A stretch of DNA of 64,000 nucleotides from Cyclobacteriaceae bacterium (GTDB taxonomy: Bacteria > Bacteroidota > Bacteroidia > Cytophagales > Cyclobacteriaceae), in contig JAHBTY010000001.1 of NCBI GenBank assembly GCA_019638355.1, positions 434,001 through 498,000 of the forward strand, read 5' to 3'. Positions within the stretch are counted from its first letter, which is position 1. Every line of letters starts with the position of its first letter. A model generated the notes under the pieces. The model searched no databases and was not told the DNA's origin. It saw only the letters and a list, made by a program, of their open reading frames with translations. This document shows positions 42,844-46,592 of this stretch, one piece after another. Made by a program: the position numbers and the translations under genes.

Positions 42844-43554
42844 ATGCAATCCGATTTAAAAGACATTTTATTTCTCGATATTGAAACTGTACGGGTGGTT
42901 GACCAGTATCAGCAGCTAAACGAGCGCCTTAAAACCCAGTGGGCACGCAAAGCCAACTTTTTCAAACGCGAAGAAGGTCAAACCGATGAAGATCTGTTTC
43001 AGGATCGTGCAGGTATCTATGCCGAGTTTGGAAAAATTATTGTGATTGGCATTGGTAAATACACCCAACAAAACGGTGTGTTAGGATTGCGTACTCGATA
43101 CTTTGCCGATCATGATGAAAAAAAATTGCTGACAGAATTTAGGGAGAGTCTTGAAAAGATGGGGCCCGGTGTAAGACTTTGTGCACACAACGGCAAAGAG
43201 TTCGACTTTCCATATATCTGCCGAAGATCGTTGGTGAACGATTTACCCATTCCATCTGTTCTTAACATGTCGGGCAAAAAACCATGGGAGGTTGGCCATC
43301 TGGATACCATGGAGATGTGGAAATTTGGCGACTACAAACATTATACTTCACTTGATCTGCTTGCGGCAATTTTTGATATCCCCACCAGCAAAGGTGTAAT
43401 GGATGGCTCGATGGTAAGCGAAGTTTATCACCAACAAGGCGACTTAAAGAAAATAGCAGAATACTGCATGGGCGATGTAGTGGCAGTAGCCCAATTATAT
43501 TTGAAAATGAAGGGACTGCCAATTATTGCTTCGAATAACATAGTAAATTCCTAA
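42844..43554 (+). CDS. Predicted 3'-5' exonuclease (PolB exonuclease-like)
   Basis: 236 residues. DEDD exonuclease motifs: ILFLDIETVRV (Asp/Glu of Exo I), LCAHNGKEFDFPYICRR (Exo II Asp) and 'KKIAEYCMGDVVAVAQLYL' (Exo III with Asp). This fits the PF10108 family of stand-alone exonucleases related to the PolB proofreading domain. It is followed immediately by the GxxExxY pseudogene element, whose outer repeat includes this gene's stop codon. Confidence 0.87.
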   Translation: MQSDLKDILFLDIETVRVVDQYQQLNERLKTQWARKANFFKREEGQTDEDLFQDRAGIYAEFGKIIVIGIGKYTQQNGVLGLRTRYFADHDEKKLLTEFRESLEKMGPGVRLCAHNGKEFDFPYICRRSLVNDLPIPSVLNMSGKKPWEVGHLDTMEMWKFGDYKHYTSLDLLAAIFDIPTSKGVMDGSMVSEVYHQQGDLKKIAEYCMGDVVAVAQLYLKMKGLPIIASNNIVNS

Positions 43555-43573
43555 CCACTGAAATAACACGGAG
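43552..43573. repeat. Left inverted repeat of the GxxExxY pseudogene element
   Basis: TAACCACTGAAATAACACGGAG: its first three bases are the stop codon of the exonuclease gene and it ends directly at the ATG of the pseudogene. Its complement (ACCAC...ACACGGAG words) recurs at 43951-43985 on the other side. Confidence 0.7.
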
Positions 43574-43950
43574 ATGGAAGAAAACCAATTAACAGAAAAA
43601 ATAATTGGATGTAGCATTAAGGTACATAAAACACTTGGTCCTGGGTTATTAGAGTCTGCTTACCAATCATGCCTTCATCATGAATTAGTAAAGCAGGATT
43701 ATTTGTGGAAAAAGAAAAGCCACTTCCCGTCATTTATGAAGAAGTAAAATTGGACTGTGGCTATCGAATCGACTTATTAGTCGAAAGGAAAATTATAATA
43801 GAAGTAAAATCAGTAGAGACCTTGATTGACATTCATTTAGCTCAAGTATTAACCTACTTGAAATTATCCAACAACAGATTTGGATTACTGATTAATTTTA
43901 ATGTTTTAAAACTTAAAGACGGATAAAAGCGAGTTGTAAATGGATATTAA
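43574..43950 (+). pseudogene. Frameshifted GxxExxY (PD-(D/E)XK-like) gene
   Basis: Reading from ATG 43574 gives [40 protein letters not shown], with the GLLESAY (GxxExxY) motif, and then leaves the family frame after codon CAG at 43694-43696; one missing base restores [37 protein letters not shown] sequence including D and E-x-K of PD-(D/E)XK nucleases. A nonsense TAA (43924-43926) replaces an Ile-type codon, after which KRVVNGY continues to a TAA at 43948-43950, the expected family end. Two lesions make this a pseudogene; sequencing error cannot be excluded. Confidence 0.85.
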
Positions 43951-43985
43951 ACTCCGTGAATTTCTCCGTGTTTCTCCGTGGTAAA
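43951..43985. repeat. Right inverted repeat of the GxxExxY pseudogene element
   Basis: Carries three CTCCGTG words and ends with GGT; the reverse complement reads ACCACGGAG-aa-ACACGGAG, matching the left arm in inverse. It stops 3 bp before the ATG of RNase R (43989). Confidence 0.75.
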
Positions 43986-43988
43986 GAA

Positions 43989-46136: not shown

Positions 46137-46137
46137 T

Positions 46138-46162
46138 TGTCAGTATCAGAATTTGCAGAATT
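46138..46162. repeat. Left inverted repeat of the intact GxxExxY element
   Basis: Begins 1 bp after the RNase R stop. Its 25 bases (TGTCAG-TATCAGAAT-...-AGAATT) match the inverse of 46568-46592 at 21 of 25 positions. Word family CAGAAT differs from the ACACGGAG family of the first element. Confidence 0.75.
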
Positions 46163-46181
46163 ATTGAATTTAAGAATTTAA

Positions 46182-46568
46182 ATGGAGAAAGACCCCCTTA
46201 CATATACTATCATTGGCTGCGCTATGAAAATTCATAACTCATTAGGAAATGGTTTTCAGGAGGTTATTTATCAAAGGTGCTTAAAAATAGAATTAAAACG
46301 GGCAGGATTAGATTTTGGAAGAGAAATTGAACAAACTATTTACTATGATGGAATTGAGGTGGGGACTCGAAGAGCAGACTTCATTGTAGAGAATAAACTA
46401 ATAGTTGAGTTAAAAGCCGTGATTAATTTAGAAGACGTTCACCTTGCTCAGGCAAAAAATTATGTAATTGCTTATGATTTTCCACGAGGCCTATTAATAA
46501 ATTTCGGATCAACGAGTCTTCAGTATAAGTTGATCTTTAACCCACACTACAATTCTGATCATTCTTAA
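46182..46568 (+). CDS. Intact GxxExxY protein (PD-(D/E)XK nuclease-like)
   Basis: 128 residues. IIGCAMKIHNSLGNGFQEVIY contains the GFQEVIY (GxxExxY) motif at 24-30; RADFIVENKLIVELKAV gives D66 and E76-x-K78 of the PD-(D/E)XK core. It ends 'GLLINFGSTSLQYKLIFNPHY'. The family (PF13366/TIGR04256) occurs in many copies in some bacteria; function unproven. The gene and its flanking inverted repeats occupy exactly the space between RNase R and polyprenyl synthase. Confidence 0.88.
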   Translation: MEKDPLTYTIIGCAMKIHNSLGNGFQEVIYQRCLKIELKRAGLDFGREIEQTIYYDGIEVGTRRADFIVENKLIVELKAVINLEDVHLAQAKNYVIAYDFPRGLLINFGSTSLQYKLIFNPHYNSDHS

Positions 46569-46592
46569 ATTCTACCCATTCTGATGCTGACA
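46568..46592. repeat. Right inverted repeat of the intact GxxExxY element
   Basis: Reverse complement of the left arm with 4 mismatches in 25. It starts at the last base of the GxxExxY stop codon and runs through codon 3 of the polyprenyl synthase gene (start 46584). Confidence 0.75.

Follow-up and report, generated by a model that had tools for sequence, protein, structure and literature searches.

The stretch of DNA analysed here (the window) comprises 64,000 nt of the Cyclobacteriaceae bacterium assembly GCA_019638355.1 (contig JAHBTY010000001.1, positions 434,001 to 498,000 of the forward strand). Within it, the gene for RNase R is bracketed by two compact elements, each of which holds a single gene of the GxxExxY family between inverted repeats, termed arms. 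The features of this locus, in window coordinates, are the following.

42844–43554, plus strand: gene for a PolB-like 3'-5' exonuclease, the upstream neighbour; its stop codon TAA occupies 43552–43554.
43552–43574, plus strand: 5' arm of element 1 (TAACCACTGAAATAACACGGAGA; CACNGAG-type units), its first base on the exonuclease stop.
43574–43926, plus strand: GxxExxY gene of element 1, broken by an early stop and by a shift of frame at about 43.70 kb.
43951–43983, plus strand: 3' arm of element 1, three CTCCGTG units, stopping a few bp short of RNase R.
43989–46136, plus strand: RNase R gene, lying between elements 1 and 2, assigned by profile match.
46138–46178, plus strand: 5' arm of element 2 (TGTCAGTATCAGAATTTGCAGAATT...), read as a variant of a cross-phylum terminal repeat, TGTCTGAAYC...TGATT.
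46182–46568, plus strand: GxxExxY gene of element 2, intact, 128 aa, with a predicted PD-(D/E)XK nuclease fold.
46551–46592, plus strand: 3' arm of element 2, covering codons 1–3 of polyprenyl synthase (ATG CTG ACA, 46584–46592).
46584–47555, plus strand: gene for polyprenyl synthase, the downstream neighbour, assigned by profile match.

Both elements fill a gap between one gene's stop codon and the start of the next, with the GxxExxY gene enclosed by inverted repeats, as the initial annotation of this DNA had described. Three bases separate the end of element 1 as a whole from RNase R; element 2 runs from one base past RNase R into codon 3 of polyprenyl synthase, where it ends. The coding lesion mentioned there was also borne out, the gene of element 1 being spread over two frames (43574–43747 and 43705–43926). 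The local inverted-repeat score was 31 for element 2 (best shuffle 24) and 26 for element 1 (best shuffle 25), each reached by 0 of 300 shuffles. Since the score of element 1 barely tops that of its shuffles, the case for this element rests on its relatives.

The genes of both elements matched PF13366 (PDDEXK_3) above the cut-off as well as TIGR04256 (cut-off 35 bits), the latter with 130 bits for element 2 and with 49.3 and 87.7 bits for the pieces of element 1. No known transposase of the DDE, HUH, serine or tyrosine type was recognized in the cassette gene, for which NCBIfam gave TIGR04256 only and Pfam PF13366 only. Hallmarks of the PD-(D/E)XK superfamily are its fold and a conserved D and (D/E)xK. 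Across 18 aligned GxxExxY sequences D66 and K78 were invariant and E76 nearly so, and the structure model of the element 2 protein (predicted local distance difference test score, pLDDT, 92.9) matched nuclease folds, the Cas4 type being nearest. The GxxExxY protein is predicted to be a PD-(D/E)XK nuclease of Cas4/RecB-like type. The gene is under purifying selection, with a ratio of non-synonymous to synonymous substitution rates (dN/dS) of 0.06–0.09. Seven GxxExxY loci in ten pieces were found in the source genome, five of them beyond elements 1 and 2.

Inverted repeats around GxxExxY genes, proposed from these two elements, proved to be common. Among the loci surveyed, mostly best profile matches, 144 of 200 carried an inverted repeat with a score of at least 24 (all sets; the double-fetched L196/L358 counted once; L numbers designate loci). 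By set these were 52/76 in the source genome and class-level sample, 22/28 at genus level, 52/77 named and 19/20 further loci. None of 92 control genes reached this threshold, the maximum being 23; an earlier control set had contained four high scorers, each owing to a second cassette within its stretch. In the source genome, end inverted repeats with scores of 26–38 were present, in the correct orientation, at six of the seven loci, the exception being L001. Some loci below the threshold still have weaker arms, for example L132, L139 and L141.

A parallel class of cassettes carries an IVP-type four-helix-bundle gene between arms of strict 7-nt units. Four of the six TIGR02436 matches in the source genome have inverted 7-nt-unit arms with scores of 27–42, the same kind of arms scores 23 in L014, and the remaining match, L016, is an armless fragment. 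Together with the class sample, 44 of 54 loci of this type scored at least 24. The sole class member run against Pfam, L013, is 23S_rRNA_IVP (PF05635). GxxExxY genes occurred in 40 of 60 class-level genomes and IVP-type genes in 46 of 60.

The arms of both classes consist of tandem units. GxxExxY arms show a soft period of 8–10 nt (self-match 0.33, 0.38 and 0.32 at lags 8, 9 and 10) and four-helix-bundle arms one of 7 nt (0.66 at lag 7, 0.67 at lag 14), against 0.25–0.28 in the control. Similarity of GxxExxY arms went with identity of the proteins (rho 0.51, n=71; reached by 0 of 500 permutations); the corresponding value for the four-helix-bundle class was 0.04 (n=44), which 24% of permutations reached. 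Type A (CRCNNAG) and type B (GTCTGAA/TGATT) arms required 2 changes on a quick protein tree built on few columns, versus 23–40 in 300 shuffles, so that arm type follows the GxxExxY tree across phyla. Cassettes of element-2-like proteins have the terminal sequence TGTCTGAAYC in common in several phyla, the named loci behind this comparison being drawn from the best 80 matches of the scan. The core GTCTGAA was found within 150 bp upstream in 34/77 loci, inverted downstream in 30/77 and on both sides in 18/77, compared with 0/77 shuffled upstream flanks. The ends listed span Bacteroidota, Fibrimonadales and Thermochlorobacteriaceae, and Chloroflexi with the variant GTCTTAA. The initial annotation had called the repeats of the two elements unrelated. 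Their units do differ (CACGGAG in element 1, CAGAATT in element 2), but arm type is not independent of the gene inside, because it goes with the GxxExxY clade.

Evidence for movement comes from paralogues and from junctions in relatives. L142 and L344, two copies in one genome with unrelated flanks, share 89.6% identity over 483 bp; the aligned homology extends from 15 bp outside the left arm to 4 bp outside the right arm. At the junction between the exonuclease gene and the RNase R gene, rnr, four of 26 loci including the source hold a full-length GxxExxY gene (the source, where it is broken, and L019, L025 and L029). The others comprise three deleted relics, six inserts with two open reading frames (ORFs), three judged remnants of the latter and ten short gaps. 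As relatives carry GxxExxY at this very site, intact or as relics, this comparison makes element 1 an old insertion, passed on vertically and since broken. The six two-ORF inserts (L018, L026, L027, L030, L034 and L035) are toxin-antitoxin-like by eye, with ParE confirmed in L018, and the junction is therefore a reusable slot. Between rnr and polyprenyl synthase, GxxExxY was present in the source genome only and absent from all 26 relatives among the 27 loci, where gaps of at most 71 nt (21 loci) or 107–124 nt (two loci) or other genes (three loci) were found. Both junctions, for which the initial annotation had asked whether empty sites exist in close relatives, were seen empty or replaced. 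The other genes between rnr and polyprenyl synthase are, in L024, a PIN-domain gene accompanied by a small partner, in L030 an ORF judged by eye to be Abi-like, and in L044 a gene of another kind.

Two further junctions display the same variety of states. The third was compared in the source (L013) and nine relatives: the four-helix-bundle gene is present in the source, L328 (with a frame that ends early), L329 and L331, and is internally deleted in L327. Gene-less shells remain in L325 (GxxExxY-style) and in L330 and L333 (7-nt units), and two-ORF inserts are found in L326 (YoeB), with 7-nt units still next to it, and L332. At the fourth junction (L360), the full-length gene is present in L370 and L371 (listed also without stops) and partly deleted in L367–L369; in the source genome (L366) a gene-less shell is left, in which both arms and a short piece of the gene survive, and the second anchor is not clear in L372.

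Cassettes with scores of at least 24 were mostly co-directional with their upstream neighbour (GxxExxY 100/117, four-helix bundle 43/43; background 263/390 ORF pairs in source-genome samples), neighbours being assigned approximately, from ORFs; against a smaller background of 38/48 pairs the GxxExxY excess was marginal (p 0.054). The junctions that remain once the cassette is subtracted have a median of 15 nt for GxxExxY and 14.5 nt for the four-helix bundle. They measure at most 40 nt in 50/69 and 24/32 cases, respectively, where 4.5% would be expected were insertion proportional to the length of the gap; among ordinary co-directional gaps, 48% are of this size. A preference of the cassettes for tight co-directional junctions is supported by these counts.

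Three gene-less shells lie elsewhere in the window.

58715–58779, strand not assigned: shell of GxxExxY-style units (CACGCAAAGTCGCAAAGACCGCAAAG / inverted).
58868–58967, strand not assigned: shell of 7-nt units in four-helix-bundle style.
62795–62862, strand not assigned: shell of 7-nt units of GGCAGTA type, directly ahead of the truA ATG.

Besides the first of these, gene-less GxxExxY-style palindromes occur in L335, L338 and L366. Upstream of truA (30 loci), the gene-less shells of near relatives are built of two different 7-nt units, and four-helix-bundle-like ORFs were seen by eye in L181, L182, L184, L187 and L190. In L166–L168 an AATTGTC 7-nt-unit hairpin ahead of truA apparently supplies the last codons and the stop of the upstream thiolase; the source genome carries a different unit there. 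At L359 an arm is apparently read in frame as the host protein's C-terminus, and a short stretch resembling the gene end of the relative L361 separates it from the GxxExxY start. The window also contains a degenerate GxxExxY-style arm (ACCACAGAGAACACGGAG, 23928–23945) with no clear partner and, at 22222–22351, short inverted repeats TGGACTGTGAGGACACAGTCCA of another palindrome style, similar ones of which recur in L232.

Taken together, elements 1 and 2 and their relatives are probably minimal transposon-like cassettes that use gene junctions as sites and whose own nuclease handles the arms. The proposal of small mobile cassettes at gene junctions, made in the initial annotation, is favoured by the tie between arms and genes, paralogues with unrelated flanks, empty junctions, the tracking of protein by arms and the junction preference. 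Sequence comparison supports the arms, the movement and the preference for junctions. Since arm type goes with the GxxExxY protein in different phyla and element 2 contains no further gene, the most economical inference is that this protein does the cutting and moving of the cassette itself. Such arm-bounded nuclease cassettes form a widespread family that has apparently not been described.

Several observations weigh against this reading. Movement is deduced from comparison, and none was observed. In a second pair from the genome of L142 and L344, namely L129 and L341 (86.5% identical), homology starts about 42 bp beyond the left arm; on the right it reaches the arm end in L129 but stops 21 bp before it in L341. 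No target-site duplication was visible in the flanks compared, and no close, precise pair of filled and empty sites was found among the junctions compared. Comparison of L359 with L361 places a type-B arm inside the 3' end of the host gene and not past its stop. Element-2-like proteins are rare on plasmids (8 of 72,556 records) and phages (0 of 50,697), so the spread of the cassettes across phyla is not accounted for. Arms can persist without a gene, as the shells demonstrate, and since toxin-antitoxin pairs occupy the same junctions, these may simply be permissive. Genes lacking repeats, or repeats equally frequent around unrelated genes, had been named at the outset as findings that would speak against the cassettes. 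The former exist (56 of 200 loci without arms above threshold, L001 included), as do gene-less shells; of the latter, none was seen among the 92 controls.

The alternative that fares best, although unlikely, is that the cassettes are passengers resembling miniature inverted-repeat transposable elements (MITEs), the arms being recognized by an unrelated transposase elsewhere and the GxxExxY and four-helix-bundle genes being cargo kept for another reason. This would suit a sole gene that is no known transposase, the occurrence of gene-less shells and the failure of four-helix-bundle arms to track their protein (rho 0.04). A transposase acting in trans does not predict that arm type tracks GxxExxY across phyla (2 changes versus 23–40). 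Moreover, in a narrow test, the ACCAC-type pattern gave six matches in the source genome (three for the backward control), and in none of the five inspected did a partner arm within 1500 bp enclose a larger gene.

It is rather improbable that the cassettes are non-mobile addiction or defence islets, which, like toxin-antitoxin pairs, would reach permissive junctions through ordinary horizontal transfer followed by homologous recombination. Such islets would fit the purifying selection on GxxExxY and the presence of ParE, YoeB and PIN-type genes in these junctions or ones next to them, but two cassette copies in one genome lack a common flank, and the arms are tied to cassette genes (0/92 controls).

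Still less probable is an RNA-level intervening sequence on the model of those in 23S rRNA that have an S23/IVP ORF; its arms would pair in the transcript, where RNase III would cut them. The shared family name of PF05635, a size similar to that of the rRNA intervening sequence in the available part of PMC4990558 and the mostly co-directional upstream genes (43/43; 100/117) are in line with it. If the arms paired as RNA, however, G.U mismatches on the sense strand should exceed A.C. No such excess was found (47 v 61, 26 v 30, 35 v 39 and 28 v 38; total 136 v 168), while terminator-like hairpins with one mismatch from source-genome samples showed it clearly (24 v 7, p 0.003). Nor was covariation of arms detected: in two sets of five vertical orthologues, one set per junction, cognate arms gave no better match than non-cognate arms did (23.6 v 21.1 for GxxExxY, 31.2 v 32.4 for the four-helix bundle). 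The terminal sequence is common across phyla, and Rfam gave no match at E 0.1 in window 43400–46800. Because the mismatches lack a G.U excess and the orthologues' arms lack covariation, the arms look like terminal repeats at the DNA level rather than an RNA stem. A reading of the arms as ordinary terminators, or as repeats arisen by chance, was rejected and is hardly credible: some do lie directly past stop codons and element 1 scores barely above its shuffles, but 0/92 control genes reach the threshold, the tandem units have a class-specific period and a G.U excess is absent.

A mobile cassette of about 430–480 bp would work as follows. Its inverted tandem-unit arms would form the ends and serve as terminal inverted repeats on DNA, and the product of its sole gene, GxxExxY, would bind the arm units and cut; this step, like the chemistry of movement, is inferred. 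The cassette would then move from arm to arm as one unit and land in a tight co-directional junction, where it would harm neither neighbour and could be read through. Old copies would shed the gene by internal deletion, leaving hairpin-like shells and a junction open to reoccupation. Tentatively, these could be a new class of autonomous transposons, among the smallest conceivable, of about 450 bp and mobilised by one Cas4-like nuclease of 115–130 aa, which would recognize the tandem units of the ends. In a sister class, a four-helix-bundle protein that binds nucleic acid would recognize the 7-nt units, and the two classes could together explain, in general, where orphan heptamer and hairpin repeats at bacterial gene junctions come from.

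Should GxxExxY and IVP-type genes be the sole genes of mobile cassettes, both families would gain a testable function, and a further nuclease type would join those that move DNA. Gene-less hairpins and heptamer arrays between genes would have an origin, and a mobile element would be adapted to sit within operons and leave them unbroken. In the available parts of the open-licence literature, GxxExxY, searched by name and accession, yielded no account of flanking repeats or mobility, and neither GxxExxY nor IVP-type genes had an assigned role outside rRNA intervening sequences.

RAYT/REPIN systems consist of a small HUH-type transposase gene between inverted repeats and of gene-less palindromes elsewhere in the genome. 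The cassettes likewise combine a single small nuclease-type gene, inverted repeats and gene-less palindromes of the same style, but they differ in their predicted PF13366 nuclease, their tandem-unit arms and the mutual divergence of copies within a genome. Cas4 has four conserved cysteines for an Fe-S cluster; no cysteine occupies an invariant or nearly invariant column of the 18 GxxExxY sequences, and the protein is shorter than Cas4/RecB-type nucleases (128 aa versus 202 in the matched chain). Insertion sequences and MITEs, the latter known from Porphyromonas (available part of PMC4596501), share terminal inverted repeats, patchy presence, unrelated flanks and internally deleted derivatives with the cassettes. 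These differ in having no known transposase, no target-site duplication found, a size of about 430–480 bp and mostly tight stop-to-start junctions as sites. The 23S rRNA intervening sequences that carry an S23/IVP ORF, as far as described in the available part of PMC4990558, resemble them in size, in inverted ends and in the IVP family of the parallel class; unlike these, elements 1 and 2 lie between protein genes, and arm mismatches have no RNA-pairing bias. Finally, TAACTGA heptamer arrays, almost only direct repeats, have been described ahead of start codons, in Bacteroidetes among others (available part of PMC4679880). The 7-nt tandem units ending beside start codons are similar, but they are inverted here, and a link to a four-helix-bundle gene was not found in that part of the source. 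The cassettes may be a source of such heptamer arrays.
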